In this document: piece by piece, positions 3,600 through 64,000 of the stretch
Layout of the letters: every line of letters starts with the position of its first letter
Position numbering within the stretch: position 1 is the first letter of the stretch
Assembly: GCA_028015205.1 (NCBI GenBank)
Contig: CM051511.1
Location: 37,225,204 to 37,289,203 of the forward strand
Direction of reading: 5' to 3'
From: Mytilisepta virgata
Lineage: Eukaryota; Mollusca; Bivalvia; Mytilida; Mytilidae
DNA length: 64,000 nucleotides
Program-made: the position numbers and the translations under genes
Notes under the pieces: generated by a model
What the model was told of the DNA's origin: nothing
Databases searched by the model: none
The model's input: the letters and a program-made list of their open reading frames with translations, nothing else

Positions 3600-5404
3600 A
3601 ATCTGATATCATTCCGGAACTTGACTTGACATTTTGCAGAACATTTCAGAAATCAAGGAAATCCAGACGTAGTCAATAAGAAGTTTTGAAAGTAATATAT
3701 TAAATGAATTATAAAAAAGAGAAGATAATCTGACTTTAAAAGAGTCTGTTAAACATATAACAATATCCGAAATAAAATCGCAGATTGAAAAACTGAAAAA
3801 TGGTAAAAGTAATGGTCCAGACCTTATTTGTTATGAAGTTATTAAACACAGCAGTCCTGTTTTACTCACATCATTGGCTAAATTTGTCAGCCTTATATTA
3901 AACTCTTCAAATACCCAGATAAGTGGAATAAATCATTTATTATTCCTATTTTAAAAAATGGAGATAACTCAAATCCCTCCAATTACAGGGGGGTTCTCAC
4001 AAACTGTCCAAGCAAACCTTTCAATTCTATTATTAATAACAGATTGTTAAGTATATTTGAAAACCTTGTCAGTAGGTCTCAATTTGGCTTTTAAAAGACA
4101 GTCGAACTACAGACAGTATTTTTATTGTTACGACTCTCATTAATAAATACATTAACCAGAAAAAGAAAAAGATGTTTAGATGCTTCATAGACCTGAAGAA
4201 GCCATTTGATTCAGTATGGAGAACTGGCCTTCTCTTTAAACTTATAAAAAATCCGGATATTGCCTCAAATTTACATAATATTATTAAAAATATGTGTCAA
4301 ATACTGAAGCCAAAGTAAAGTCAAATGATTACTTGTCTGACCCAGTACTAATAGAAAGAGGGGTTAAACAAGGGGGTTATTTAAGTTCTTTATTATTTAA
4401 TATATATATCAATGATATCCTTGATATGTTTAATGACAAATGCTTTCCAGTTATGCTTGAAAAACTATTTTAAATTGTCTAATGTTTGCAGATAATATTT
4501 TATTATTATCAGAAACACCTGAAGGACTTCAGAACTGTTTAAATAAATTTAGTGAGTACTGTAAGAATTTGCAACTTTCTATAAATGTTGAAGAATCAAA
4601 ATAATGATATTCCAACATAGAAATATATTGGATAATAAATATGATTTCTTCCTGAACGAAACAAAACTAGAAAAAGTATTAAAATATAAATATCTTGGAA
4701 ATGTGATTGAAACATTTTGGATGTTCCATTCCACACATATAGAATTATCTACCGATAAAAAAACAAATAAATTAACGTTTTCCATGTCTAAATATCTCAC
4801 TCAACTTGATAATATAAATATTAATGTTCATAAAAAAAAACTATTTTAATCCTTAATAAAACCTATTTTGATGTATAATTCAGAAATTTTGTATATGGAT
4901 TTTTATCATTAAATAATAAAAGCATAAAAAAGGTAATGATAACTCCAAATTTGATATTATATCTTTGATAGACAGTAGCCACCTTGAGAATACTAACTTA
5001 AAATTTTGTAAATATACCCTTGGTATAAGTAAACAATCCGTAAACATAGCAGCCAGAGCTGAATTAGCACAATACCCCATTGATACATACATTAAATGTC
5101 ATTTCCTGAAATACTTATGTAGATGTGTAAATGGAAACAATAATCCTTTACTACATGATGCATTCTTATTATCTAAGTCCCTTCACTCCCCTGGTACTTA
5201 CTCCTGGTTTTCATTTGTTGATAATATATGCACTTCTAATAACATTTATCAAAACCAATTGAAAGTAATAAACTACCAAAATAGAAATTTAATTTAACCT
5301 AAACTTAAACTTTGAAACAGAAACGTAGAGATAATTATGAAGTGTGTTCTTTAAAAAATTACAAACAGTGAAAGAAGATAGTAAAATATACTTATATAGT
5401 AAAA
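3600..5404 (+). pseudogene. Decayed LINE ORF2 (second LINE, plus strand)
   Basis: Across several frames the plus strand reads KLKNGKSNGPDLI, NYRGVLTN, a DLKKPFDSVWR box (canonical KAFD), GVKQGGYLSSLLFNIYIND, then FADNILLLS in place of the YADD box, followed by the thumb region with YKYLGN. A further piece (4965-5297) reads KFCKYTLGISKQSVN, typical of the post-RT domain. Frameshifts and stops occur throughout and both catalytic boxes are damaged, so the copy is dead. The right-arm counterpart (minus strand) lacks the ~1.1 kb equivalent to 3420-4510. Confidence 0.8.
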
Positions 5405-9504: not shown

Positions 9505-12500
9505 GAATTAGATATCGCATGATATCAACTCGAGTTATTTAATGTGGATATAATAATAAACGAGCCTTTGGCGAGTTTATTATTCAATTCAAATTAAATA
9601 AGGAGAAAACGATATCTAATTTTTACTATTTGTTTAACATATTTCTCTTATGATTCCTAAGGAATTTTTGTTTGTGATTCGGGGCGTCGGAAATATTAAC
9701 GTTCATTTCTCTGTGACGTCAAATGTTGCTATGCAAAGATGAATTTCAAATATGGCGCCATTGTGTAGCTAATTTGTTGACCAATCAAAATAAAAGAATT
9801 TTTCTAAACAAACACGCGTGGACCAATCGGGCCCATGTCCATATTCCGAAATCCCATTGGTCCGAAGCCCATTGGCCCGAAAGGCCATTAGTCCGAAAAT
9901 GGTATAGCCCAAAAGTCACAAAGATTGTACGACTAAAACAGTCTGCTTCATTTCAAACTAGTGCTAGTATGTGTTATGTGTAAATTTATGTTGGTTGTAC
10001 TTTACAGTTATTTCATGGTCGGCCTACTGAGGGTAGTGGTATACAGTACGTTAATTACTTCTCGAAATAAATACATACAAGTATACATTTGTACAAACAA
10101 CGATAGATTTCTGTGCTGAAAAAAAAGCTTAAGATTGCTCTATTGCTGGCTGACTATTCCAGATAACATTTTACAGGATAAACTAGACATCAAGGAGATG
10201 GAATCCATCTCTGTGGGCCCGCCGTAAATAACATGTGGTCCAAAGTTTGTATGGATAAACTGAAGTTAAGCTTAGTAAAAAAGCACTTGAAGTAATAATC
10301 AATTCAGGTTATGTACTGACATGATTGAGAGTGTTTGACATACTTTTTGGGGGTGATTTGCATAACCATACCATGTATCATCTCTGAACTCATAACCGTT
10401 TTCAAGTTATATAGCAGACAAAATCTTTACCAAAGAACATGGGGTTCCCACATTTGACCTAGAGATTTGCACAATAATCGCTACATCCTTTTTGACATTG
10501 GTCAATAAGCATTCCAAGTATCTTCATTTAACTTCAAACCATTCTCAAGTCATAGAGCGGACACGACATGGTGTTCTCAACTTTGACCTAAGTGTTTTAC
10601 CTTGACCTTTGACCTATATAGTTGTACATAATCTGGTGCTAGTAAATATCCATGCCAAGTATAAACCATAAAGGTTCTCAAGATATAGAACGGACACGAT
10701 TTGTTACCGACAGTACAGACCGATCACTAAAGGGCCCTTATAACAATCCTTCAAGATTTATCGGGGCCTCGGTGGCTGAGTGGTCTAGGTAGTTCGTCAT
10801 GATGATCACTAGCCTGTCAACGCTGGGGTTGTGAGTTCGAATCTCACCTGTGGCGGGGTGTGTTCGACTCCGAGCTTAATTGACAAGGATTGCCAATTTT
10901 CCTACCGAAGGTCGGTGGTTCTCTCCGGATACTCCAGCTTCCTCCACCAATAAAAACTGGCCGCCGCGAAATGGCCAAAATGTGCTGAAAACGGCGTTAA
11001 ACCCCAACTAAACAAACAATCAAGATTTAGCTTAAAGTGTCAGTTTTGTTTCGAGGTACAAGATGAAAGTCAAAACGGACGTGCAGATAAGTTAAATACT
11101 AATATTTAGTATCTTCAGCCCCTTTAATTCAATCAAAAACCTTCAAACTGCACTGGGTTTTTGTTGCCTCATAAAAAAATGCAATTTTTAAATATTAAAA
11201 GATTAATACTTCGACCCCGGGGCATCAAAATTAGAAATCCGAGTCTGATATGGAATTTGGTGTATACTGAATTATGTATATGTACCGTTAAGCAAAATAT
11301 TATGAAATACCCGAATATATCGTTCTATCCAATGGTTTTTAGTAGATCAATCCCTATGATCGGAAGAAATATAAGTCATCTCCGTTTATCTAGCCTTTGG
11401 ATTGTTGTATAGGTTTTTAACATGTTATGCCTTAAGCTCTGCCTCGCCCAAGAGAAATTCATGAGTAGTTATGTCTAGTGGTATATTTCCATGTCAGAAT
11501 ATCAATAAATAAACTAAAATTAACCGAGACAAAGACATGCGTGACTATACTTTCCTCACTTGGGACCTGCGCAATAGTTTCGCTATTAAACAGATTTTTC
11601 ATTAAGAACCTTCCACTTTGTCTAAATATTTAAATTACTGGTAGTTTTTCTGCTTATGTTTGCATTTTTTAAAATTTATATAAAGCCGACTGTGTCATCT
11701 ATAATATCTACCGCAAATGCTACTTTTCCGGAAAGGCATCACGAATAGGCATGTGATAAAACTTACGCGAACATTGACAAAGAGGCATGTGATAATTAAA
11801 TGGCGGGTGTAGCTTTATCTGCCCCTTTAAAGTGCTTAGTTATTCTTACCAAAGTTTGGTCCCAACTAGGGTAGTGGTTTCAGAGGAAAAGATCTTTAAA
11901 GGAACAGACGACAGACGACTGCGTTAAACTGATAAAGTTATAGTTTTGACGATACTTCACGTAAGAAGCGTGAATATTTTTTCCCTGTACACAGCCAAGA
12001 GTAGTGTTCAGGGTTGACACAAGCTTTAAGGGAGAGGAGGGGTTCCATTGAGGTTTCTTAATCCGATTCCAAGATATTCATAATACTGAAAGTATATTTG
12101 TGGGGTAAAAATGTCATGGTGTGAAAAAAAAAAGAATTGTTACATGTATTTCTACGGGGTTCAGTGCTCATGGTGCTTGCATACATAAAATTTAAATTAA
12201 GCGTTTCTCAGACAAGGATTTCATTTTAAAATTTCATTAAATTTAAGTGGCATACACAACTTAACTTAAAGTAGGGTATCAATACTTAACTGATAATGCA
12301 TTTACACTTAAGCCATTAGCAAATTGGAAAAAATAAAATGAAAATATAAGTGGGGTTAGCTGGGAGTTTGAAAGGAAATCTTCTTTGACCCCAGCACTTT
12401 AAACCTGCATATCTGACTCTGCCTTCTTTTTCTGTCACAAGGGCGCAACTTTTTTCTCAAAATACAGTTTTATTCGATTGCAGGTGATATTAATTCCTGC

Positions 12501-24581: not shown

Positions 24582-24975
24582 TAATATGTTAATGTTTGTT
24601 CCAGTTCCTCCGTCACATAGGGTCATTGCTGTCTTCAGCTGGTGGTACATGTAGGTCGTAGTCATTCAATACACGGTTAAATATATATGTCGTTTTTCTA
24701 CGGCATATTCCCATGATTCTTTTGATTCGCAGTCTTCCTCTTCTCTCAAGCGTTTAGCCGTTTTCTTGATCTTTCTATGTACAGGGTCTTTATTCATGTC
24801 ATGATGCCAGGAAATCAGTCCGAGGTAATGCTTTCTTTGTAATATGTTATTGTTTGTTCCAGTTCCTCCGTCACATAGGGTCATTGCTGTCTTCAGCTGG
24901 TGGTAATGTAGGTCGTAGTCATTCAATACACGGTTAAGCATATATTTCGTTTTTCTACGGCATATTCCCATCCCG
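24582..24975 (-). repeat. ~130-bp direct duplication inside the zinc-finger reading frame
   Basis: 24582-24712 and 24832-24970 are almost identical (both hold TGTTCCAGTTCCTCCGTCAC). The duplication is about 249 bases apart and joins in a different frame, giving the upstream protein a foreign C-terminal tail. Confidence 0.8.
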
Positions 24976-25262
24976 GCTTCGACTAGTTCGTTTACTGTCT
25001 GTGAGTATTCCGATTGATGTACTTGAAATGTCCTATTCAAAATGACATCCCATGGAGACTGTCCGCATTGCTCTTCGGAGTCTTCTTTGTATACATGGTC
25101 ACTACTTTGTTCCGATTCCTCGTTATCGGCTTCTGTGGTGGTGTCTGAGACTGAATCACTATAGTCTGTTGAATCCTCTTCCATACCGTGTGCATTCTTT
25201 TTTTGTCGCTCTAGGTTGAAGTTGCGCTTGGACTGGTATCCACATATGTCACAGGTATACAT
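24666..25262 (-). CDS. C2H2-like protein, probably decayed, C-terminal part
   Basis: The 198-residue frame starts MYTCDICGYQSKRNFNLER, a C2H2 zinc finger at residues 4-25. The first zinc-binding His is replaced by Gln (CAA codon), giving C-x2-C-x12-Q-x4-H, so this finger is probably broken. An acidic Ser/Asp/Glu-rich stretch (about residues 29-65) follows, then a conserved-looking region with VNELVEAGMGICRR and AMTLCDGGTGTNN, and a basic segment. The last ~15 residues come from a frame-shifted duplicate of its own coding sequence. The frame begins directly after the stop codon of the upstream frame and in phase with it (TAA ATG). The two may therefore be one ~311-residue protein split by a nonsense change. 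I do not recognise the family; a mobile-element or virus-derived gene is possible but not shown. Confidence 0.45.
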   Translation of the reverse strand: MYTCDICGYQSKRNFNLERQKKNAHGMEEDSTDYSDSVSDTTTEADNEESEQSSDHVYKEDSEEQCGQSPWDVILNRTFQVHQSEYSQTVNELVEAGMGICRRKTKYMLNRVLNDYDLHYHQLKTAMTLCDGGTGTNNNILQRKHYLGLISWHHDMNKDPVHRKIKKTAKRLREEEDCESKESWEYAVEKRHIYLTVY

Positions 25263-26752: not shown

Positions 26753-27152
26753 GCGGTGACACCTTCTGCAAACAGTGCAAACAGAGGAACTTAAAATAAA
26801 TATTTACGACATATTGAAAAGTCAGATTTAAAAAGTATGATGGTTTGGATATAAAACCTGCACAGGTAATTCTACTGGTTTGGCTATAAAGAGTGGATCG
26901 GTATAAAGAGTGGGTATTAAAAGTACTGAAGTGAAGTTTTGGAGAAAATTCAGGTGAAAATGGAAATTAGAATAAATACGTTTGAGTCATTAAAGGGTCC
27001 AAGAAGGTTTTTTTAGTCAGAAAATTTCCTCGTTGAACTATTCCAATAATAACATTATAAATGCTGTGTTTATTTTTTCCAGATTTTGACAGAAGCAATG
27101 TAGCAGACAGTTGGTAACAAATTATTAGTCGATTCCATAATCATTGTTACAG

Positions 27153-28755
27153 ATGAAAAGGGTAAAAGTGTTCCTTTTATGGCTAACAGTAGTAGTGGTG
27201 CTAATCTATTTCATACAGAGCAATAGGTTGTGGAATAGCAATGATATTACACAGACTTCACAATATGTTGCTAGAAACACAAACTTCGGAAGTCAGAGAA
27301 TCTCAGGACACCGTGCCACGTCTCATTCATCACATATCAAACCTGCATTGCCAAACATACACACAACAAAGCTTATGGACCCAGAAGCTCAGGAGGAACA
27401 CGACTTACAGGTTATACTGGAAACAGCAAAGAAGATTTCCGAGAAACCAGTCCTAGTCACACTTATAAACGACGGTTATCTCTCTTTAGCACAGAACTGG
27501 TTTTGTAATACTAAACACATGGGAATACATAAACAGGTGTGTCAATAACGTTAAGCTTAAAGTGTTTTTAGAATGAACAAAAATGTGTGGTATAATAATT
27601 CTTTCAGTGATGATTTTAAAAACTTGCAAGCGAATGAAATTTGGCATTAATGATAAAAAATATTACAAATTTGATATGCTTTCTTAGACCTATCCTTAAA
27701 CCTATAAAACCATAATTTCCAAATATTTGTGCTGTAATTTGTGTATATTTGATGCAAACATGATTGATAAATTCAGTTCACAGCAGCAACACATTTCTGA
27801 TTTGTCAAGTTTTGAAAAATATACTTTTCTGAAAATGTTTGACAAAGTGAAGGCATTACTACATATATACATCATTATATGATTTTGAGGTCATTATGAT
27901 CAGTTTTGATTAGATATATATAGAAGTTTCAGCTGAGTGACACAGGCTCCCAGGGGCCCCTGGTAATTATTATTTTGTATGGACAATAACGACATCATGA
28001 GCTTGATGTTCGGTTTAGAATCGGAACTTATCGTTGTTTTACGTTTACAGGTCTTAATAATTACAACAAATGAAGCTGCCAAAGAGACTCTGCAGTCAAT
28101 ATCACCGGAAGTAAACGTTGTCGTTATGACGGTGGAAAGTTACTTACAGAAAGATCAAGATTATAGTCACGTGGGATACCTTCGCCTTATACTACGGAGA
28201 ACCCGGATATTGCATACACTTCTGCAAAATGACATAGAGACGTTTTTATTTGAATGTGATTTTTTATGGATTAGAAATCCTATACCTGTGTTTAGATCTC
28301 ATGAAGGGAAAAATGACATAGTTTTTGTACATAATTCAGTAAACGTCAATTCTATCAATGGAGGATTTTTCTACATGTTCCCTACTTCCGTTACAAAACA
28401 AGTATTTCAGGAACTTTATAATATGATGCTCAAACTGGCAACGAAAATAAAAAATATGCCGCCAAATAAGGCGGTCTCTGAGGGAGAAAACGATCAGGTT
28501 TATTTATCAGCTCTAGTAAACAAACGGTACGCTGGGTTAAAGAGTACCATGTTACCCTTGTCTGATTTTCCGGACGGGAAATGGTATTCTTGGCCGGAAT
28601 CAAAACGAAAGCAATTTAATCCATACATCATTCACAATAACTGGGTGATTGGAAACAAAAAGAAAGTTTCCCGTGCCAAAAAATGGGGACATTGGTTTCT
28701 TAAAGATGACAATACCTGTGACTTTAATAGAGTAGATAACGTTACGAGGACGTGA
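27153..28755 (+). CDS. Golgi-type nucleotide-sugar glycosyltransferase, PF03407-like, two exons (copy 1)
   Basis: Exon 1 is 27153-27536 (donor CAG|GTGTGT) and exon 2 is 28051-28755 (acceptor TTTACAG|GTC), both phase 0, encoding 362 residues. Residues 5-21 are one hydrophobic segment after a short basic N-terminus, so this is a type II membrane protein. A variable stem follows to about residue 90. The catalytic part has LVTLINDGYLSLAQNW, ECDFLWIRNP (196-205, acidic DxD-like sugar-nucleotide/metal motif), NGGFFY (231-236), ENDQVYL (274-280) and HNNWVIG (323-329). These are hallmarks of the PF03407 nucleotide-diphospho-sugar transferase family (plant RGXT-like, animal homologues). Donor and acceptor are unknown. 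The ATG at 27153 follows an in-frame stop and a possible 3' splice site (GTTACAG), so a 5'-UTR exon is likely; another acceptor is at about 27081. An inverted second copy lies at 45178-46770. Confidence 0.85.
27900..27965. other. TE 3'-end-like hairpin in the glycosyltransferase intron
   Basis: The intron contains ggctcccagg...cctggtaatt at about 27941-27966, preceded by GAGTGACACA. This resembles the ends GGTGAG...GATTCAGGCTC...GAGCCTCTTG at 32626-32665 and 35386-35422. The same relic is in copy 2 (about 45970-46003), so the insertion predates the duplication. Confidence 0.4.
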
Positions 28756-37260: not shown

Positions 37261-38575
37261 TTAGGGTTAGGGTTAGGGTTAGGGTTAGGTTACGGTTAGG
37301 GTTATGGTTAGGGTTAGGTTAGGGTTAGGTTAGGGTTAGGTTAGGGTTAGGGTTAGGGTTAGGTTAGGGTTAGGGTTAGGGTTAGGGTTAGGGTTAGGGT
37401 TAGGTTAGGGTTAGGTTAGGGTTAGGGTTAGGGTTGTGTTATTTTTAGGTTAAGTTAGGTTAGGTCAGGGTTAGGGTTAGGGTTAGGGTTAGGATTAGGA
37501 TTAGGGTTAGGGTTAGGTTAGGGTTAGGTTAGGGTTAGGGTTAGGGTTAGGGTTAGGGTTAGGATTAGGGTTAGGGTTAGGTTAGGGTTAGGGTTAAGTT
37601 AGGGTTAGGGTTAGGGTTAAGTTTAGGTTAGGTTAGGTTAGGTTAGGGTTAGGTTAGGGTTAGGGTTAGGGTTAAGTTTAGGTTAGGTTAGGTTAGGTTA
37701 GGGTTAGGTTAGGGTTAGGGTTAGGGTTAGGGTTAGGGTTAGGGTTAGGGTTAAGTTTAGGTTAGGTTAGGTTAGGTTAGGGTTAGGTTAGGGTTAGGGT
37801 TAGGGTTATGGTTAGGGTTATGGTTAGGGTTAGGTTAGGTTAGGGTTAGGGTTAGGGTTAGGGTTAGGATTAGATTAGGCTAGGGTTAGGTTAGGGTTAG
37901 GGTTAGGGTTAGGGTTAGGGTTAGGGTTAGGGTTAGGGTTAGGGTTAGGGTTAGGGTTAGGTTAGGGTTAGGGTTAAGTTAGGGTTAGGGTTAGGTTAGG
38001 TTAGGTTAGGTTAGGGTTATGTTAAGGTTAGGGTTAGGGTTAGGTTAGGGTTAGGGTTAGGGTTAGGGTTAGGGTTAGGGTTAGGGTTAGGGTTAGGGTT
38101 AGGGTTAGGTTAGGGTTAGGGTTAAGTTAGGGTTAAGTTAGGGTTAGGGTTAGGTTAGGTTAGGTAAGGTTAGGGTTAGGTTAAGGTTATGGTTAGGGTT
38201 AGGTTAGGGTTAGGTTAGGGTTAGGGTTAGGGTTAGGGTTAGGGTTAGTTTTAGGGTTAGGTTAGGGTTAGGGTTAAGTTAGGGTTAGGTTAGGTTAGGT
38301 TAGGTTAGGGTTAGGTTAGGGTTAGGGTTAGGGTTATGGTTAGGGTTAGGTTAGGTTAGGTTAGGGTTAGGGTTAGGGTTAGGGTTAGGGTTAGGATTAA
38401 GTTAGGCTAGGGTTAGGTTAGGGTTAGGGTTAGGGTTAGGGTTAGGGTTAGGTTAGGGTTAGGGTTAGGGTTAGGTTAGGGTTAGGTTAGGGTTAGGCTA
38501 GGTTAGGGTTAGGGTTAGGGTTAGGGTTAGGGTTAGGGTTAGGGTTAGGTTAGGGTTAGGTTATGGTTAGGGTTA
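37261..38575 (+). repeat. Interstitial telomeric array, (TTAGGG)n, 1.3 kb
   Basis: The array consists of TTAGGG mixed with TTAGG and single variants (TTATGG, TTAAG, TTAGGA). The G-rich strand runs 5'-3' to the right. It starts abruptly after CACAGTTTG and ends in TTAAGGAAATGGTTATTATCC. The 5-mer units could be real variants or homopolymer errors of long reads. Confidence 0.97.
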
Positions 38576-38576
38576 A

Positions 38577-39501
38577 GGAAATGGTTATTATCCATGGTTT
38601 GTAGATGTTATGCCTGTGTTTTATTCATAGTTTGTAAAGGTTATGCCTGTGTATTGTCCGTGGTTTTTGTACACCTTACGCCCAGTAATGTCATAATTTG
38701 TAAAAGTTATGCCCGTGTTTTATCCATGGTTTGTGGTTACATCCATGTTACATCCATGGTTTATGGTTACGTACGTGTATTATCCATGGTTTGTAGATAT
38801 AACCCCCCTGTATTGTCCATGGTCGGTAGACGTTACGTCTCCGTGTTTTTGTACACGTTACGCCCTGTATGTCATAATTTGTAAAAGTTATTTGATTTAT
38901 CCATGGTTTGTAGATATTAAGCCATTGTATTGTCAATAGTTTATAGTTGTTACGTGCGTGTTTTATCCATGGTTTCTGGTTACATCCGTGCTTTATGGTT
39001 ACGTCCGCGTATTATCCATTGTTTATATGTATTATTGTCCATGGTTCGTATATGTTAAACCCCTGTGTTATCAATGGTTGTAGAAGTTCTTCCCGTGTTT
39101 TATCGGTTGTTTGTAGTTGTTATGCCTCTGTATTGTCCATAGTTTATAGATTTTACTTCCGTGTTTTATCCATGGTTTTCAGATATTATGCGCCTGTATT
39201 TCCATGGTTGATAGATGTTACGCCCGTGATGTATCCATGGTGTGTAGATGTTATGCCCAGTATTGTCCATAGTTTTTAGATATTACGCCCGTGTTTTATC
39301 CTTAATTTGTAGGTGTATCGTCCGTATTTTATCCATACTTTATGTATTATCCATGGTTTGTAGAAGTTATGCCAGTGTTTTATCGATGGTTTGTACACGT
39401 CAAGACCGTGATTTATCCGTTTTGTTCATGGTTTGTAAAAGTTATGCCCATGAATTGTTCATGGTTTGTAGATGTTCAACCCATGTTTTATCCATAGTTT
39501 G
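38577..39501. repeat. 33-bp minisatellite, block 2
   Basis: Same theme as 36440-37260. Positions 38577-39430 are almost identical to 39771-40625, differing by only a few bases, so they were duplicated recently. Confidence 0.9.
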
Positions 39502-39770
39502 TTAGGGTTAGGGTTAGGGTTATGGCTATGGTTAGGGTTAGGGTAAGGGTTAGGGTTAGGGTTAGGGTTAGGGTTAGGGTTAGGTTAGGGTTAGGGTTAG
39601 GGTTTAGGTTATGGTTAGGTTAGGGTTAGGGTTAGGGTTAGGGTTAGGGTTAGGGTTAGGGTTAGGGTTACGTTAGGGTTAGGGTTAGGGTTAGGGTTAG
39701 GGTTAGGGTTAGGTTAGGGTTAGGGTTAGGGTTAGGGTTAGGTTAGGGTTAGGTTATGGTTAGGGTTAAG
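39502..39770 (+). repeat. Interstitial telomeric array, second, 0.27 kb
   Basis: A shorter (TTAGGG)n tract with the same left border (ATAGTTTG) and right border (TTAAGGAAATGG) as the first array, as expected if array plus minisatellite was duplicated as one unit. Confidence 0.95.
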
Positions 39771-40740
39771 GAAATGGTTATTATCCATGGTTTGTAGATG
39801 TTATGCCTGTGTTTTATTCATAGTTTGTAAAGGTTATGCGTGTGTATTGTCCGTGGTTTTTGTACACCTTACGCCCAGTAATGTCATAATTTGTAAAAGT
39901 TATGCCCGTGTTTTATCCATGGTTTGTGGTTACATCCATGTTACATCCATGGTTTATGGTTACGTACGTGTATTATCCATGGTTTGTAGATATAACCCCC
40001 TGTATTGTCCATGGTCGGTAGACGTTACGTCTCCGTGTTTTTGTACACGTTACGCCCTGTATGTCATAATTTGTAAAAGTTATTTGATTTATCCATGGTT
40101 TGTAGATATTAAGCCATTGTATTGTCAATAGTTTATAGTTGTTACGTGCGTGTTTTATCCATGGTTTCTGGTTACATCCGTGCTTTATGGTTACGTCCGC
40201 GTATTATCCATTGTTTATATGTATTATTGTCCATGGTTCGTATATGTTAAACCCCTGTGTTATCAATGGTTGTAGAAGTTCTTCCCGTGTTTTATCGGTT
40301 GTTTGTAGTTGTTATGCCTCTGTATTGTTCATAGTTTATAGATTTTACTTCCGTGTTTTATCCATGGTTTTCAGATATTATGCGCCTGTATTTTCATGGT
40401 TGATAGATGTTACGCCCGTGATGTATCCATGGTGTGTAGATGTTATGCCCAGTATTGTCCATAGTTTTTAGATATTACGCCCGTGTTTTATCCTTAATTT
40501 GTAGGTGTATCGTCCGTATTTTATCCATACTTTATGTATTATCCATGGTTTGTAGAAGTTATGCCAGTGTTTTATCGATGGTTTGTACACGTCAAGACCA
40601 TGATTTATCCGTTTTGTTCATGGATTTTAGAAGTTATGCCCGTGTATTGTTCATTGTTTGTAGAAGTTATGTCCATGGTTTGTAGAAATTATGGCCACGT
40701 ATTACCAATGCATGGTTTGTAGAGGCTATGCCCGTGTTTT
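39771..40740. repeat. 33-bp minisatellite, block 3
   Basis: Near-identical copy of block 2 until about 40625, then further diverged units to 40740, where TTTAGCTCACCTG begins. Confidence 0.9.
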
Positions 40741-41052: not shown

Positions 41053-43233
41053 AGCTGTTGGGTACAGGTTGGTCTATTGAAATTATGTATATGTGTGTAA
41101 TAAACTCGTTATTTCTTGATTTTACAACATATGATACCATAACACGCAGGACCGACCTAATTTTTAGTCATTTTAACATGTTTGATACACCCCCTTGTCT
41201 GTGTAGCTATGTGGAAATAGATTAAACTTTGTACATTATCATATTGGTCAATCCCGTGTGTATAAATTTTTCATGTTAATAATATCAAATCCATCACAAA
41301 GAAAAAACAGTTTTTCTAGATAAAATAACTATCTTACCATAAGATATCCGTAAGGCATGTCCAACTGTGCCATTTTTAATCGTCTGGAATGATGTAGCGT
41401 TCAAAATATCTCATTGTAATATGATACAAGTAATAGCTTTTCTAAAAAGCTAACCGCCCCTTAGCTTTTTATTAATAAAGAGTATTATTTTTTATGTATT
41501 ATTTACTGTACATAATATTGTTTTATTCTGTCATGTTTGTCTATATACCCATGTTGCCTTGTTTAATCTGTACGTGTATTGCATTGTGTTTGTTAAATTG
41601 TGTATTTTTCATTGATCCGTATGGGTGTAATTTGCAAATCTATAATACTAAATTTACGAATTAGCCGAAAAGGCGGCAAAACGCGTGGTTCAAAATAAAC
41701 GATGTATGGTTCAAATTATAAAGGTTATTATCGGATTTGACAATCTGCATTTATGAATTTAAACTGCAATTTTGTTTATGTGCAAATAGAATTTGTATGC
41801 ACTTTTCAGATATGAATTCTCCCAACATATCCCTTAGAAAGTTCTCGAACGCATCATTTTGACACATTGATTTAAATAAACAAGTATGCACATATTTCAA
41901 ATGTATTTCTGTTTGAAATTACGGAAGAATAATAAAACAAATTAAAAACATTCTCCTTCGAGTGGGATGTTTCCGCCTCATGTATTCAGGATTGGTTTTC
42001 TACAATAACGCAATTTCTCCTAACTGTAAAGGTTATAAACTTTGAAGATTATGAAGAAGTAAGGTAAAATTCAGGGGAATAACTAACTTAGTTGTTTTTT
42101 GGAGAAAGCACAAAGTGATGAAACCAACCATTATCTATTTTTACATTTGTCATGTACCTGTCTAAATATATATCTACCATAGAATTCCTTGCAAGCCCAA
42201 GATAAAAATATTTTTAACAAATGGTCATCTTTATCATTAATCTCGGACAACTTTGATAAATATAAACGTGGACAGCACACGCAGCCACACACTAAAATGC
42301 TTTTATCGTCTCATTATTGGATATATTTGTGAAATTAAGCATCGCTTGCCCTGCCCATGATGATAATGGAACAATTGGAACAATTATTTTCCAAAAATAT
42401 GCTCTACCTAACTCACGACATTTTTTGAAAAATTCCTCCGTCACTAAGGAAATGTTTACATCTACAATTTCATTTTCAAATTTATTCTGGAGGAAAAAGG
42501 TAATGCATTATGAAATGTGTATTTAATAAAAGCTTTTCATCAAGTTCCATTTCAGAATTAATTGTAACAACAAAAATATTGACAATTTATGTGGTTGTTT
42601 TCGTCATAGATTTTGACTGGTCCATTTTGGTAATTCTACATGGCATACAGTCTAATTCATCAGTGGATACACATATGACAATTGGGTCACGTTGACCTAC
42701 ATGTCATGCTTCACTGACTTTGGTTAAAGTTTGCATTAACATCCATTACTGGAATACTACAGCATATATAGACATGAAACTATCAGTTGATACCAACTAC
42801 TTAACAGGAAAGTTTATATGAAGTCTGCAACAACATCCATGATGAGTTCCTGTTCCATGAATGACATGGCCGCAACAACTTTTTATAGTCAATATGGCCA
42901 CCACAAAAAAATGCTTATTTTCCCTCGCTCGCGTGGGTTAAATGTCTAGTAAATAAATAAATTACTGTAATTTGGGAAATTATTGCGATGTTTTTATTAT
43001 TGCGAAAAATGCGACAAGGTTGTAATCGCAATAATTTAAACTCGCAGCTTGGGAATTTTTTATATGAATGAAGCGGGATTTTTCTCAATATCGCAAAAAT
43101 TAAAATTGTATTTTGGTCTAAAATGATACAATCGCAATATTAAATTCACGCAATAATTTCTGAATTTACAGTAATTAAATGTTCGTAATGTGATCACATT
43201 AAACTTTCCCTTATTATAGGTATTATTATTACC

Positions 43234-43586
43234 AATATAATTTAAAACCGATCTCTCATCGCTCCCGTTTTCTGATATGTCGCGTGGGAGATCTAACGAA
43301 ATCCGCTTTGAGGTCACATGTGAGTGAACTGGAACTTATGAATTTATAATGACATGCAAATGAGTTGACTTCCTATCAATAAGCCAATCAAAAAAGTTTA
43401 TGAATTCTGGGGACTGACGATTTCTTCGTAATCAACTTACAAGATCGCGTAAGCCGCAATTTCATTGGTCGAACAGGACACACCTACGAGGTCACTCACA
43501 TGTGACCTCAAAGCGGGTTTCGTTAGATCTCCCACGCGACATATCAGAAAACGGGAGCGATGAGAAATCGGTTTTTAATTAGATTG
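43234..43586. mobile_element. Long-TIR MITE (353 bp) with 10-bp target duplication
   Basis: TATTATTACC occurs at 43224-43233 and 43587-43596. Inside, arms of about 88 bases are near-perfect complements (AAAACCGATCTCTCATCGCT ... GAGATCTAACG ... GAGGTCACATGTGA). The corresponding place in copy 2 (about 62620) is empty. Long TIRs with a 9-10-bp duplication suggest a Mutator-like family. No protein. Confidence 0.85.
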
Positions 43587-43639
43587 TATTATTACCTTTC
43601 AAAAGATATATTACTACATAGTTTTTTTTTAAGTCTGTG

Positions 43640-44510
43640 TTTTGATGGCCTGGCCTCAAAATTGGCTTGGCTTCAAAATTGGCTTAGCCTCAAAATAAGC
43701 CTGGTCTCAAAATTGGCTTAGCCTCAAAATTATCCTGGTCTCAAAATTAGCTTAGCCTCAAAATTAGCCTGGTCTCAAAATTGGCTTTGCCTCAAAATTA
43801 ACCTGGCTTCAAATTCGTGATTTTGACCTTAGATTTGTCTTGGCTTTTAACGGACTTTTAATCTTCTCTTACAATGTTATTCCATCGTCCAGATTCAGTT
43901 GGTAATTTATGATTTGACCTTCTAATTTTACATAAAACTGAAATAAATCTGTCATCTAAAATATCGAAAGTTTTCAAATTAAAATTTATCTTTAAAAATT
44001 CTGTAATTCACGGCCTTTAGAGAATTTTGGACAGTACTGTATACTGTTAAAACTAGCAATCAATATATAAAGAAATATAAGAATAAAAAGAAATACGAAG
44101 AAAAAATCCAAAATTTAGATACAAATAGTATTTTATTTAAATCTAACCACAGATATAATTTACAATATAACTTGGGTAATTTTAATTTTGAGTATAGAAA
44201 GTTTGATTTTAAATTTAGAATTAGCCACCACTCATTAGAAATATATACTGAATCCAAAGATATGACAGGTTCATTGTTTTACTTGAAATGTTATTTCTAA
44301 CAGAGAACTGCATCAGGTTTTATTTGACCTTACACAGTTTTATCTACACCATCAATCAACAGTTATAACAAGAGGATATCTGATACACTATTTTAAAAAA
44401 GATATTTTGAAATTTGTAAGATGAGTTAAAAGCCAAGACAAATCTGAAGCCAAGCCAATTTTTAGGCCAAGCCAATTTTGAGGCCAGGCTACATTTTAGA
44501 GTATGCCACT
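43640..44510. mobile_element. Foldback-like element with inverted CCTCAAAATTGGCT minisatellite ends
   Basis: 43645-43830 holds about ten units of an 18-19-bp repeat, CCTCAAAATTGGCTTGG. The complement (GGCCAAGCCAATTTTGAGG) occurs in two to three units at about 44445-44505. The interior is AT-rich without gene. The second copy is at 62680-63895. Confidence 0.65.
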
Positions 44511-44891
44511 TACAAGGTGTTGATGTTTAAAAAACAAACAGCAGTTTCAAGAATAGTTCTGTCTACCATCATGGCGCCCACGGGTTTCTTATCATTAATT
44601 CAAGTATACAACCAATCAAAACCAACAATTCGATGTATTTAAACGTGCAGAAATTGTGAAGGAAGAAAAAAAAATTCCGTATATAATTTTAGGTTTTATC
44701 AACGGACGATTCATAAACAAAAAATGTAATCACAAATAAATTAAATGGATTATACTTTAAAAGTACCGGTATGTGCAGTATCAGATTTATACGAAAACAA
44801 TTTCGCGCTTTACAATTCTTTAAAATTTTCACACATTTGCATAATTTCCAGGCCGGTTTGAATATTAAGAAAATATAAAAATTATTCACTC

Positions 44892-47590
44892 CCCTATACC
44901 ACCCCAAAACATGAAACATGCACTATCGTAAAACCTGAAGAAATGCATTCTATTCTTATAGTTTCTTCCACATTTGTAGGCTAATGTAGGCATTTGTCTG
45001 CTAAGAGCATATTTTCTTACATTTTTAAAATCAGTACAAAAAAAGAATAAGATATCAAACAATGATGCCACTTTAAACATAAATATATACCACCCATACT
45101 TGTTTACAGATAAAAGTATACCGGAATGAACATGCTGACAAGACAATAAATGATATGGTCACTAGTCAAAATTACCATCACGTCCTCGTAATGTTATCTA
45201 CTCTATTAAAGTCACAGGTATTGTCATCTTTAAGAAACCAATGTCCCCATTTTTTGGCACGGGAAACTTTCTTTTTGTTTCCAATCACCCAGTTATTGTG
45301 AATGATGTATGGATTAAATTGCTTTCGTTTTGATTTCGGCCAAGAATACCATTTCCCGTCCGGAAAATCAGACAAGGGTAATATAGTACTCTTTAACCCA
45401 GCGTAACGTTTGTTTACTAGAGCTGATAAATAAACCTGATCGTTTTCTCCCTCAGAGACCGCCTTATTTGGCGGCATATTTTTTATTTTCGTTGCCAGTT
45501 TGAGCATCATATTATAAAGTTCCTGAAATACTTGTTTTGTAACGGAAGTGGGGAACATATAGAAAAATCCTCCATTGATAGAATTGGCGTTTCCTGAATT
45601 ATGTACAAAAACTATGTCATATTTCCCTTCATGAGACCTAAAAACAGGTATAGGATTTCTTATCCATAAAAAATCACATTCAAATAAAAACGTCTCTATA
45701 TCATTTTTCAGAAGTGTATGCAATATCCGGGTTCTCCGTAGTATAAGGCGAAGGTATCCTACGTGACCAAAATCTTGATCTTTCTGTAAGTAGCTTTCCA
45801 CCGTCATAACGACAACGTTTACTTCCGGTGATATTGACTGCAGAGTCTCTTTGGCAGCTTCATTTGTTGTAATTATTAAGACCTGTAAACGTAAAACAAC
45901 GATAAGTTCCGATTCTAAACCGAACATCAAGCTCATGATGTCGTTATTGTCCATACAAAATAATAATTACCAGGGGCTCCTGGGAGCCTGTGTCACTCAC
46001 CTGAAACTTCTATATATATCTAATCAAAACTGATCATAATGACCACAAAATCATATAATGATGTATATATGTAGTAATGCCTTCACTTTGTCAAACATTT
46101 TCAGAAAAGTATATTTTTCAAAACTTGACAAATCAGAAATCTGTTCCTGCTGTGAACTGAATTTATCAATCATGTTTGCATCAAATATACACAAATTACA
46201 GCACAAATATTTGAAAATAATGTTATTATAGGTTTAAGGATAGGTCTAAGAAAGCATATCAAATTTGTAATATTTTTTATCTTTAATTCCATATTTAATT
46301 TGCTTGCAAGTTTTTAAAATTATCACCGAAAGAATTATTATACCACACAATTTTGTTCATTCCAAAAAAAAAACTTTAAGGTTCACCTGTTTATGTATTC
46401 CCATGTGTTTAGTATTACAAAACCAGTTCTGTGCTAAAGAGAGATAACCGTCGTTTATAAGTGTGACTAGGACTGGTTTCTCGGAAATCTTCTTTGCTGT
46501 TTCCAGTATAACCTTTAAGTCGTGTTCCTCCTGAGCTTCTGGGTCCATAAGCTTCGTTGTGTGTATGTTTGGCAATGAAGGTTTGATATATGATGAATAA
46601 GACGTGCCACGGTGTCCTGAGATTCTCTCACTTTCGAAGTTTGTGTTGTTAGCAACATATTGTGAAGTCTGTGTAATGTCATTGCTATTCCACAACCTTT
46701 TGCTCTGTGTGAAATAGATTAGCACCACTACTACTGTTAGCCATAAAAGGAACAACTTTACCCTTCCCATCTGTAACAATGATTATGGAATTGACTAATA
46801 ACTAACTGATATAAGTTTGTTGCCAACTGTCTGCTACATTGCTTCTGTCAAAATCTGGAAAAAAAAATAAACACAGCATTTATAATGTTATTATTGGAAT
46901 AGTTCAACGAGGAAATTTTCTGACTAAAAAAAGACCCTTTTTGGATCCTTTAATGGCTCAAACGTATTTATTTTAATTTCCATTTCATCTTAATTTTCAC
47001 CAAAGCCTCACTTCAGTACTTTTAATACCCATCCACTCTTTATACCCAAACCAGCAGAATTACCTGCGCAGTTTTTATATCCAAACCAGCAGAATTTTTA
47101 AATCTGTTTTTACAGTGTACCGTTGGACATTTCAATATGTCGTAAATATATATTTTAAGTTCCTCTGTTTGCAGATGGTGTGTCACCGCCAATGCTAATC
47201 AGCAATTAAAGGATCCAAGACAAATTGGCAAAAGAGCTCTTACCAATTTAACAATAATTACCTCCCCTGATTTCTAAAGTTATGCCCTCGTAATTGGATA
47301 CAGTGTGCATACTTAACGTGCAAATGAGGTCAAACAGGATTAAGGTTTATTGTTACATTAGTTAGAAACAAGGGGAGATAACAAATGTTACACTTGGAAA
47401 GTGGTCAATTTGTGAGCAGTTAAAAACTGGTGAAGTTAAATATGACTTAGTGATTTTATAAGGCAAATTCAAATCAATATATAGGCTAACATGCAAATAG
47501 AGTAAAATAGCTAGGGGTTGCCTTGTGACCTAAAATGCATACCATGAACTGAGGTTTACAGACAGTCAAGGAAATCAGTTTGGGTAAAAT
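44892..47590 (-). repeat. Inverted duplication C, copy 2
   Basis: Complement of 25755-29040 without the solo LTR. 44511-44891 to its left is gene-free. Ends at about 47590, where a different repeat begins. Confidence 0.92.
45178..46770 (-). CDS. Golgi-type nucleotide-sugar glycosyltransferase, PF03407-like, two exons (copy 2)
   Basis: Exon 1 is 46770-46387 (donor CAG|GTGAAC) and exon 2 is 45882-45178 (acceptor TTTACAG|GTC); 362 residues, same exon phases as copy 1. The motifs ECDFLWIRNP, NGGFFY, ENDQVYL and HNNWVIG are unchanged, as is the single N-terminal membrane segment. I count 12 amino-acid differences in the 128 residues of exon 1 (stem) against 9 in the 234 of exon 2 (catalytic). That pattern suggests constraint on the enzyme domain rather than a dead copy. 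No stop, frameshift or lost splice site was seen. It could also be the other haplotype of the same gene if the assembly kept both alleles. Confidence 0.85.
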
Positions 47591-53365: not shown

Positions 53366-53960
53366 TTATCTACCGATAAAAAGGCAAATAAATTAATGTT
53401 TTTTTAATTTTGGATTTTTATCATTAAATAATAAAAGCATAAAAAAGGTAATGATAACTCCAAATTTGATATTATATCTTTGATAGACAGTAGCCACCTT
53501 GAGAAAACTAACTCAAAATTTTGTAAATATACCCTTGGTATAAGTAAACAATCCGTAAACATAGCAGCCAGAGCTGAATTAGCACAATACCCCATTGATA
53601 CATACATTAAATGTCAATCCCTAAAATACTTATGTAGATGTGTAAATGGAAACAATAATCCTTTACTAAATGATGCATTCTTATTATCTAAGTCCCTTCA
53701 CTCCGCTGGTACTTACTCCTGGTTTTCATTTGTTGATAATATATGCACTTCTAATAACATTTATCAAAACCAATTGAAAGTAATAAACTACCATAGAAAT
53801 TTAATTTAACTTAAACTTACACTTTGAAACAGAATATAAAAGTGTGTTCTTTAAAAATTTACAAACAGTGAAAGAAGATAGTAAAATATACTTATATAGT
53901 AAAATAAAAACTCAATATCAAACTGATTTTTTTTTTACTTCAAACAAACTTTGAAAATAG
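53366..53960 (+). pseudogene. LINE ORF2 fragment (third copy)
   Basis: Joins pieces equivalent to 4743-4780 and 4900-5400 of the left arm. The frame at 53480-53809 reads KFCKYTLGISKQSVN as in the other copies. The site of the Helentron-like insertion is empty here (about 53898). Confidence 0.75.
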
Positions 53961-60174: not shown

Positions 60175-63122
60175 TTAAAATAAAATAATATAAAAGACTA
60201 ACCTGTAAAATACAATTAAAACTTAAATAAGTTTAATACTTTATTTGGTCCGGCTACAAGCATCAAGTGCCTGTAACCGGCCAAACGTAGCTTAAATACC
60301 AAATTTTTGCCAATAAGCACGATAAATTTTTAACCAATCAAAATTAGAAAATTTGTAAAATTACTCAAGGTAAGAGTGGACAATTCCAAAATATAATTTT
60401 TGATTGGTGTAATTTAGTGGACTTGACTAAGTGTCTTGTCACCTTTGACACGGAAGAAAAGTTTCTGTGAGAACTAATTGCCCTGCCAAAAATACCTTCG
60501 GCTTAATGATGTAATTTATCGCACTTTTTATACTTTATGATAAAAAGACTGAATGATGAATGGACACTAATGCCTTAAGCTCAAATAAGAAAAATTGAGA
60601 ACAAATACTTAAAAATATATCAAAGAATTATGAAATTAAAATTACAAGAATGTTTTCCTAAAAGCTAAATTATGAAACTAAATATATACAACGTTAACAG
60701 GCACAATTTCTAACAAGAAATTGTGCATATTATTACAGAAAATACTTTTAATAAAATTTGTATATTTTCCCCATATAACACACGTCCAACTGAGCCTTTT
60801 TAATCGTCTGGAATGAGGTAGAGTTCAAAATATCTCATTGTAATATGATACAAGCAATAGCTTTTCTAAAAAGCTAACCGCCCCTTAGCTTTTTATTAAT
60901 AAAGAGTATTATTTTTTATGCATTATTTACTGTACATAAAATTGTTTTATTCTGTCACGTTTGTCTATATACCCATGTTGTCTTGTTTAATCTGTACATG
61001 TATTGCATTGTGTTTGTTAAATTGTGTATTTTTCATTGACCCGTATGGGTGTAATTTGCAAATCTATAATACTAAATTTACGAATTAGCCGAATAGGCGG
61101 CAAAACGCGTGGTTCAGATTATAAAGGTTATTATCGGATTTGACAATCTGCATTTATGAATTTAAACTGCAGTTTTGTTTATGTGCAAATAGAATTTGTA
61201 TGCACTTTTCAGATATGAATTCTTCCAACATATCCCTTAGAAGGTTCTCGAACGCATCATTTTGACACATTGATTTAAATAAACAAGTATGCACATATTT
61301 TAAATGTATTTCTGTTTGAAATTACGGAAGAATAAAACAAATTAAAAACATTTTTTTCGAGTGGGATATTTCCGCCTCATGTATTCAGGATTGGTTTTCT
61401 ACAATAACGCAATTTCTCCTAACTGTAAAGGTTATGAACTTTGAAGATTATGAAGAAGGTAAAGTTCAGGGGAATAACTAACTTAGTTGTTTTTTGGACA
61501 AAGCACAGTGATAAAACCAACCATTATCTATTTTTACATTTGTCATGTACCTCTCTAAATATATCTCTACCATACAATTCCCTGCAATCCCTAGATAAAA
61601 ATATTTTTAACAAATGGTCATCTTTATCATTAATCTCGGACAACTTTGATAAATATAAACGTGGACAGCACACGCAGCCCAGACTAAAATGCTTTTATCG
61701 TCTCATTATTGGATATATTTGTGAAATTAAGCCTCGCTTGTCCTGCCCATGGTGATAATGGAACAATTGGAACAATTATTTCCAAAAATATGCTCTACCT
61801 AACTCACGACATTTTTGGAAAAATTCCTCCGTCACTAAGGAAATGTTTACGTCTACAATTTCATTTTCATATTTATTCTGAAGGGAAAAGGTAATACATT
61901 ATGAAATGTGTATTTAATGAAAGCATTTCATCAAGTTCCATTTCAGAATTAATTGTAACAATAAAAATTGTGTTTTCATCATAGATTTTGACTGGTCCAT
62001 TTTGGTAATTCCACGTGGCATACAGTCTACTTCATCAGTGGATACATCTTCGGTAGTAACGAACAGCCATATGACAATTGGGTCACGTTGAGCTACATTT
62101 CATGATTCATTGACTTTGGTTAAAGTTTGCATTAACATCCATTACTGGAATACTACAGCATATATAGACATGAAACTATCAGTTGATACCAACTACTTAA
62201 CAGGAAAGTTTATATGAAGTCTGCAACAACATCCATGATGAGTTCCTGTTCCATGAATGACATGGCCGCAACAACTTTTTATAGTCAATATGGCCATCAC
62301 AAAAAATGCTTATTTTCCCTCGCTCGCGTGGGTTAAATGTCTAGTAAATAAATAAATTACTGTAATTTGGGAAATTATTGCGATGTTTTTATTATTGCGA
62401 AAAATGCGACAAGGTTGTAATCGCAATAATTTAAACTCGCAGCTTGGGAATTTTTTATATGAATGAAGCGGGATTTTTCTCAATATCGCAAAAATTAAAA
62501 TTGTATTTTGGTCTAAAATGATACAAATCGCAATATTAAATTCACGCAATAATTTCTGAATTTACAGTAATTAAATGTTAGTAATGTGATCACATTAAAC
62601 TTTCCTTTATTATAGGTATTATTACTACCTTTCAAAAGATATATTACTACATAGTTTTTTTTTTAAGTCTGTGTTTTGATGGCCTGGCCTCAAAATTGGC
62701 TTGGCCTCAAAATTGGCCGCCTTAGCCTCAAAATAAGCCTGGTCTCAAAATTGGCTTAGCCTCAAAATTATCCTGGTCTCAAAATTAGCTTAGCCTCAAA
62801 ATTAGCCTGGTCTCAAATTGGCTTTGCCTCAAAATTAACCTGGCTTCAAATTCGTGATTTTGACATCAGATTTGTCCTGGCTTTTAACCGACTTTTAATC
62901 TTCTCTTACAATGTTATTCCACCGTCCACATTCAGTTGGTAATTTATGATTTGACGTTCTAATTTTACATAAAACTGAAATAGATCTGTCATCTAAAATA
63001 TTGGAAGTTTTCAAATTAAAATTTATCTTTAAAGATTATGTAATTCAGGGCCTTTAGAGAATTATGGACAGTACTGTATACTGTTGTAACAGTAGAGCAT
63101 GATCTGTCTCCCAAAATTACTA

Positions 63123-63196
63123 CCGCACCAACCGGGGATCGAACCCGGAACCTTTGGTTCGGTAGTCCACCGCTCTACCAACTGAGCTAAAGGAGT
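63123..63196 (-). other. tRNA-like sequence in LTR (downstream copy)
   Basis: On the minus strand: A box TAGCTCAGTTGG (63178-63189), B box GGTTCGATCCC (63135-63145), perfect D stem GCTC/GAGC and T stem CCGGG/CCCGG, and TTTT (63113-63116) six bases after the tRNA-like end. The acceptor stem pairs poorly and the anticodon stem is weak (loop would read CTACCGA, anticodon ACC). It therefore looks like a tRNA-derived Pol III promoter rather than a working tRNA. Confidence 0.7.
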
Positions 63197-63409
63197 GTTC
63201 CACTAGCGCAGCTAATGGAGGGTGGTTATAAACCTGTTACGGTTCTATAACTTCTATATTAATCAAGGGAAGCCCGTTACACTTCCCCCACCTCAAGAGT
63301 CATCGTCCTACGATGACGATATCCAACTTCAACCTTTTTGCCAACTAGCTCTTTTTGACAATCGTGGGTTTTTTAACAGTAGAGCATGATCTGTCTCCCA
63401 AAATTACTA

Positions 63410-63483
63410 CCGCACCAACCGGGGATCGAACCCGGAACCTTTGGTTCGGTAGTCCACCGCTCTACCAACTGAGCTAAAGGAGT
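63410..63483 (-). other. tRNA-like sequence in LTR (upstream copy)
   Basis: Identical to the other copy over the A box, B box and stems, with TTTT at 63400-63403. Differences between the LTRs lie mostly outside it. Confidence 0.7.
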
Positions 63484-64000
63484 ACTCCACTAGCGCAGCT
63501 AATGGAGAGTGGTTATAAACCTGTTACGTATAACTTCTATATTAATCAAGGGAAGCCCGTTACACTGTTAAAACTAGCAATCAATATACAAAGAAATATA
63601 AGAATAAAAAGAAATACGAAGAAAAAATCCAAAATTTAGATACAAATGTTAAACTTATTTTATTTAAATCTATCCAATCTAACAACACATATAATTTACA
63701 ATATTACTTGTGTAATTTTAATTTTGAGTATAGAAAGTTTGATTTTAAATTTAGAATAATACTATTGTTAAAAAAGATATTTTGAAATTTGTAAGATAAG
63801 TTAAAAGCCAAGAAACATCTGAGGCCAGGCCAATTTTTAGACCAGGCTAATTCTGAGGCCAAGCCAATTTTGAGTCCAGGCTACATTTTACAGTATGCCA
63901 CTTACAAGGTGTTGATGTTTAAAAAACAAACAGCAGTTTCAAGAATAGTTCAGTCTACCATCATGGCGCCCACGGGTTTCTTATCATTAATTCAAGTATA

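Follow-up and report, generated by a model that had tools for sequence, protein, structure and literature searches.

The window, by which we mean the whole stretch of 64,000 nucleotides of Mytilisepta virgata DNA analysed here, contains a short LTR-interior-LTR element of 480 bp, which lies with its sense on the minus strand and ends in TGTAAC...GTTACA. The first-pass annotation had described two LTRs of about 195 bp with these ends, a 90-bp interior, a 4-bp target site duplication (TSD) and a purine tract adjoining an LTR. On measurement these proposals hold, the LTRs being 197 and 191 nt long and the interior 92 nt, with an exact CTGT on both sides and a tract that reads CTTCCCCCACC on the plus strand (Table 1). 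The alignment of the two LTRs of this copy shows identity in 188 of 197 columns. The first-pass annotation had also claimed that the paralogous block has an empty site, and this is indeed present about 19 kb upstream of the element, where a single CTGT is found and the insert is absent. The insertion recurs in a third block, 20.25 kb downstream (L002, L042), where both its flanks and its primer-site deletion are those of the window copy. Compared with other copies, the window copy lacks the final 2 bases of the 5' LTR and the initial 14 of the interior, so that 16 nt are missing at the LTR/interior border and no primer-binding site is left. Given this loss, we take the window copy to be a remnant that is dead as a template.

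Several other features were observed in the window. The paralogous blocks (41577-44608 and 61001-64000) match each other in four main pieces with 88-95% identity, and a 17-base minisatellite flanks the element on both sides in opposite orientations (62700-62850 and 63818-63903). Near-identical open frames occur as an inverted pair at 27141-28755 (plus strand) and 45178-46782 (minus strand), relatives of the former having a nucleotide-diphospho-sugar transferase domain (PF03407), as direct copies about 1.2 kb apart at 38549-39279 and 39742-40471, and as widely separated frames of 125 and 124 aa at 4920-5297 and 53435-53809. For a frame of 198 aa at 24666-25262 the protein search returned four relatives only, all of them nameless, and for one window protein the nearest relative comes from Mytilus edulis (61% identity), a similarity that makes a pteriomorph bivalve likely as host, Pteriomorphia being the known range of Helenus among molluscs.

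Table 1. Features of the element, its surroundings and its empty site, in window coordinates
Feature	Position	Strand	Remarks
Whole TRIM copy	63085..63564	-	Helenus-type by structure; primer-binding site deleted
5' LTR	63374..63564	-	191 nt; losses of 4 nt and 2 nt against other copies
Interior	63282..63373	-	92 nt (106 nt in 21/31 pairs)
3' LTR	63085..63281	-	197 nt
Polypurine tract	63282..63292	-	GGTGGGGGAAG, abutting the 3' LTR on its upstream side
Target site duplication, left	63081..63084		CTGT
Target site duplication, right	63565..63568		CTGT
Empty site in paralogous block	44040..44053	+	TATACTGTTAAAAC
tRNA-like segment, 5' LTR	63411..63483	-	Rfam RF00005, 41.1 bits
tRNA-like segment, 3' LTR	63124..63196	-	Rfam RF00005, 41.1 bits
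A box, 5' LTR	63465..63476	-	TAGCTCAGTTGG; second copy 63178-63189; converted from element coordinates
B box, 5' LTR	63422..63432	-	GGTTCGATCCC; second copy 63135-63145; converted from element coordinates
Candidate Pol III terminator, 5' LTR	63400..63403	-	TTTT; second copy 63113-63116; converted coordinates
TATAA	63513..63517	-	Second copy 63226-63230; converted coordinates
Palindrome	63479..63488	-	GGAGTACTCC; in the window copy confined to the 5' LTR

The genome search for paired LTRs that the first-pass annotation had suggested speaks for a family. In 1.03 Gb on 109 contigs 48 matches were obtained, and scoring covered the best 40 of 2099 first-look candidates, so that the sample represents the most similar copies. 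The analysis took in 40 distinct loci, L001-L041 without L022, a duplicate of L021 that was excluded from the LTR alignment and the pair counts; L001 is the window copy. They include 31 LTR pairs, 26 of which have exact 4-bp TSDs (25 of 30 insertions, since L001 and L002 go back to a single insertion that was duplicated together with its block). The LTRs are identical over 198 bases in 14 of the 31 pairs, the interior is 106 nt long in 21, and the element measures 501-504 nt in 18 of the 23 pairs for which its length was taken. The interior begins with TTGGCGCCCAAC in 28 pairs, this start being lost in L001 and L002, which represent the one insertion of the window, and altered by one base in L039; it ends with GGTGGGGGAAG in 28 pairs and with a one-base variant in the other three. 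A solo LTR with a TSD (L013, CTAT/CTAT) was also found, together with two single LTRs for which no matching TSD was found (L003, L031) and a 5' LTR truncated at base 87 and fused to other DNA, without a TSD (L029).

The primer site is extended to TGGCGCCCAACGTGGG(GC) in L008/L058, L021 and L047, and its length is 18 nt in L058 and 18 or 19 nt in L047. Reverse transcriptase normally copies 18 nt of its primer tRNA, and the site in L058 looks as if a tRNA 3' end had been copied. The primer of this TRIM family (TRIM denoting a non-autonomous LTR retroelement of this kind) is most likely tRNA-Lys-CTT. tRNA-Lys is among the primers of the bivalve Helenus elements (Kojima 2024, PMC10886601). As an observation apart, L069 2795-3835, which overlaps L047 1538-2578, contains the R-U5 end of the TRIM with its 18 or 19 nt primer-tRNA copy, followed by an open frame and a purine tract. 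The frame, which we assume to resemble the C-terminus of a Gypsy integrase, has no Pfam match and is not used here as evidence for a partner; the join may represent a chimera of TRIM and Gypsy formed within one particle, or else a repair event, to which an inverted repeat in the left flank would point.

As had been proposed, each LTR of the window copy carries a tRNA-like segment in the sense of the element, the Rfam cut-off for tRNA being 29 bits. Another tRNA-like match, at window 10766-10855, is barely over this cut-off (29.5 bits), and ARAGORN, run on the window with the bacterial code, found no tRNA. The A and B boxes, which had been called intact, are recovered by a self-made A-box..B-box pattern, the only matches of which in the window are the two LTR sites (none in 20 base shuffles). 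The run of four T downstream of the tRNA-like part is likewise present once in each LTR, in the sense of the element, at 7 bases and not at the six first given. Neither AATAAA nor ATTAAA is present in the window copy.

These features are not peculiar to one copy. The Rfam tRNA match covers LTR 86-158 in the window copy and in 6 further loci scanned, L007 has it in both LTRs, and all 55 full-length LTRs aligned span the tRNA-like part. A single T-run in sense is present in every one of 76 LTRs, as T4 in 75 of them and as T5 in the remaining one, and no TTTT occurs in any of the 31 interiors. The tRNA-like part shows 0.8% changes against 0.7% and 0.95% in the rest of the LTR, a comparison that is uninformative on conservation because the sampled copies are too young.

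On examination of the 40 loci, three (L005, L008, L016) proved to be composites of cDNAs in head-to-head arrangement. Searching with a pattern of two outward-pointing tRNA-like starts, and hence one centred on the tRNA-like start, yielded 26 head-to-head junctions against none with the reversed control pattern, 16 of the 26 having the exact centre GGAGTACTCC in common. From these matches L051 and L067 were removed as not belonging to this family, and L047 and L063 for a missing U5 end on one side, no TSD having been found in either; L053 and L054 are one locus. The 21 loci kept, among which L045 coincides with L005 and L058 with L008, and L016 from the genome search make up 22 composites. In all 22 a U5 end is kept on either side and the composite as a whole is enclosed by an exact 4-bp TSD, and therefore the joins were made before integration; the flanks have no mutual similarity. 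Both arms consist of R-U5 (strong-stop) only in 15 composites, including L055 with foreign filler between its arms, whereas one arm is full in four and both arms are full in two; in L016 the join lies at the polypurine tract. The R-U5-only palindromes are 211-358 bp long in 14 cases and 572 bp, with foreign filler, in one.

The composites were decomposed by a jump-allowing alignment that took no account of segments of less than 15 bases; for L055, the left arm and the filler were omitted from the input. Among the 44 junctions obtained, 24 are minus-to-plus, 2 plus-to-minus and 18 same-sense, the latter comprising 15 restarts, where the R unit begins again, and three forward skips (L058, L060, L066) that were scored as deletions. 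The minus-to-plus joins are those selected by the search pattern, and inverted joins at this place might be promoted by GGAGTACTCC in itself; same-sense restarts, which fall outside the pattern and for which the palindrome is not needed, are therefore the cleaner measure. With ambiguity allowed, the R unit starts at LTR 82-88 in 14 of the 15 restarts, exact base 84 being compatible with 8 of them, and the exception is L064 at base 75. None of 20000 random sets was equally tight in any 7-base window. Two of the 24 minus-to-plus joins (L016 and one of the two in L058) lie away from the R start, at base 92 at least on both sides. Base 84, which by our own conversion corresponds to window 63485, is 9 bases upstream of the A box (93) and 2 bases upstream of the Rfam tRNA start (86), and the junctions seem to record the 5' end of the family RNA at about this base. 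Restarts from minus to minus were observed in L043, L045, L048, L058 and L068, all five at LTR 113-118, possibly a hot spot of template jumping.

Such a reading presupposes that the palindromes arose from cDNA. If they were later genome rearrangements, that is, inverted duplications of ordinary copies, they would be uninformative on the RNA. The inverted repeat in the left flank of L047, a dropped case without a TSD, would suit an origin of this type; however, the TSD counts (22/22), on which it was rejected, the absence of the interior from 15 composites and the unrelated flanks leave it very improbable. Autointegration was also considered as a source of the dimers and rejected, since LTR termini take no part in the R-R joins. 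A SINE inserted into one LTR of the window copy and carried to the other by gene conversion is, moreover, a scarcely credible source of the tRNA-like segment. Although insertion of a SINE has been proposed by Kojima as the ancestral origin (PMC10886601), paired copies on many contigs have the segment in both LTRs, in one sense and at one place, and a local event was rejected for the window copy on this ground. The first-pass annotation had named a local SINE, or a lack of further paired copies with TSDs, as grounds against its own reading, and neither is what the genome contains.

The polymerase is a separate question. In a rival reading, Pol II would transcribe this TRIM from its TATA box, and the tRNA-like part would be what a SINE insertion left behind without harm. 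TATAA stands at LTR base 52, that is at -32 from base 84, and a Pol II start therefore fits the mapped RNA end as well, and the tRNA-like part is conserved no better than the rest of the LTR. TBP, however, also serves Pol III. Against Pol II stand the lack of AATAAA and ATTAAA in the window copy, the intact A and B boxes, the position of the sole sense T-run of at least four per LTR just past the tRNA-like part, with none in 31 of 31 interiors, and an apparent RNA 5' end 2 bases upstream of the tRNA-like start, and on this evidence we regard transcription by Pol II as unlikely. The same features, namely the boxes, the start position, the single T-run and the TTTT-free interiors along with the missing AATAAA and ATTAAA, support Pol III, and transcription by Pol III rather than Pol II appears quite probable from the sequence. 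The TTTT of the 5' LTR counts against it, as many Pol III transcripts would stop early there. What the first-pass annotation had proposed, an animal TRIM that uses a tRNA-type promoter, thus stands as regards the promoter sequence in the LTRs, while its use by Pol III is probable and is supported by the start that the palindromes seem to record.

The best explanation, to which we assign a probability of about 0.7, is a non-autonomous LTR retroelement of the Helenus kind that is driven by Pol III and whose strong-stop dimers were integrated. As to the narrower proposition that the strong-stop palindromes preserve the RNA 5' end in the genome and place it at a Pol III start in the tRNA-like LTR, we lean towards it with some reserve. 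In the mechanism we propose, Pol III would bind the A and B boxes of the 5' LTR and initiate at about LTR base 84; a share of the transcripts would read past the single TTTT of this LTR and end at that of the 3' LTR. Priming would be by a host tRNA, most likely Lys-CTT, with reverse transcriptase and integrase supplied in trans, probably by a Gypsy-type element. Minus-strand strong-stop DNA would then run off the RNA 5' end, and its 3' end could either jump to an inner site of another R, giving a restart, or pair through GGAGTACTCC with a second cDNA, so that mutual extension would produce a duplex. Such an inverted dimer duplex, whose two ends are both U5 ends, could be inserted by integrase.

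If this is true, it would provide in vivo evidence, obtained without RNA, for a Pol III-driven Helenus element, and start sites of LTR-element RNA could be read directly from assemblies by means of integrated strong-stop palindromes, which can be searched for in the Helenus elements of oyster and zebrafish as well as in Cassandra and TRIMs of the ordinary Pol II type. Some MITE-like insertions with inverted ends and a 4-bp TSD would then be by-products of reverse transcription. With respect to the literature searched, the new element of this work is the 22 integrated head-to-head cDNA insertions, which we did not find in print, the kind of element itself being already known. Among the matches listed, in a search that most subscription journals lay outside, no report of integrated strong-stop dimers was found, including the available parts of PMC3185662 and PMC12789967. 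The main text of Kojima 2024 (PMC10886601) has no wording on palindromes, inverted, strong-stop or transcription start; the word Helenus occurs, among the matches listed, in that paper only, and among the papers with the term TRIMp3 it is the only one on this subject.

The first-pass annotation knew of no bivalve family of this type, a statement that is overtaken by the description of Helenus in 2024, bivalves included (Kojima, PMC10886601). Helenus elements are TRIMs of 311-1263 bp with tRNA-derived A/B-box sequence in both LTRs, a primer-binding site complementary to the 3' end of a tRNA and a polypurine tract; in animals their TSDs are of 4 bp, Gypsy elements are their likely partners, pteriomorph bivalves have 51 families, and whether they have a functional Pol III promoter was left open (PMC10886601). 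By its structural features the present element is of this kind, as far as it can be set beside the 51 bivalve families by description only. It is a short LTR element without coding capacity (480 nt here, the interior of about 100 nt being too small for a gene), with tRNA-derived A and B boxes in both LTRs (by Rfam in the window copy and L007), a primer-binding site after the 5' LTR in the family (28/31 interiors) and not in the window copy, a polypurine tract upstream of the 3' LTR (GGTGGGGGAAG in 28/31, a one-base variant in 3) and the 4-bp TSD seen in animals, exact in 26/31 pairs.

According to the available parts of PMC10853983 and PMC7215508, Cassandra is likewise a TRIM with an internal Pol III promoter sequence in its LTR; however, it is a plant element and its sequence derives from 5S rRNA, whereas that of the present element derives from tRNA. 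Membership in Cassandra was rejected, since tRNA is the sole match in the window at Rfam cut-offs and 5S rRNA has none there. The biv-TRIM elements, as described in the available part of PMC6934838, are bivalve TRIMs of similar size (about 500 bp by our own sum) that differ in their repeats of 202-218 bp, a polypurine tract of mostly GGGGAGA, a core TGATCCCAAAGGAC and the lack of a clear primer-binding site. The family here, in contrast, has 198-bp LTRs, a different polypurine tract, no TGATCCCAAAGGAC core and a clear primer-binding site, and membership in biv-TRIM was rejected as the interior of L007 has neither the GGGGAGA tract nor the core. Retroviral strong-stop DNA can prime itself or switch templates when reverse transcriptase runs off the RNA 5' end and jumps or folds back. 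The proposed origin of the composites resembles this run-off with its subsequent jump or fold-back, whereas here the products have entered the genome and form a class of insertions with TSDs.
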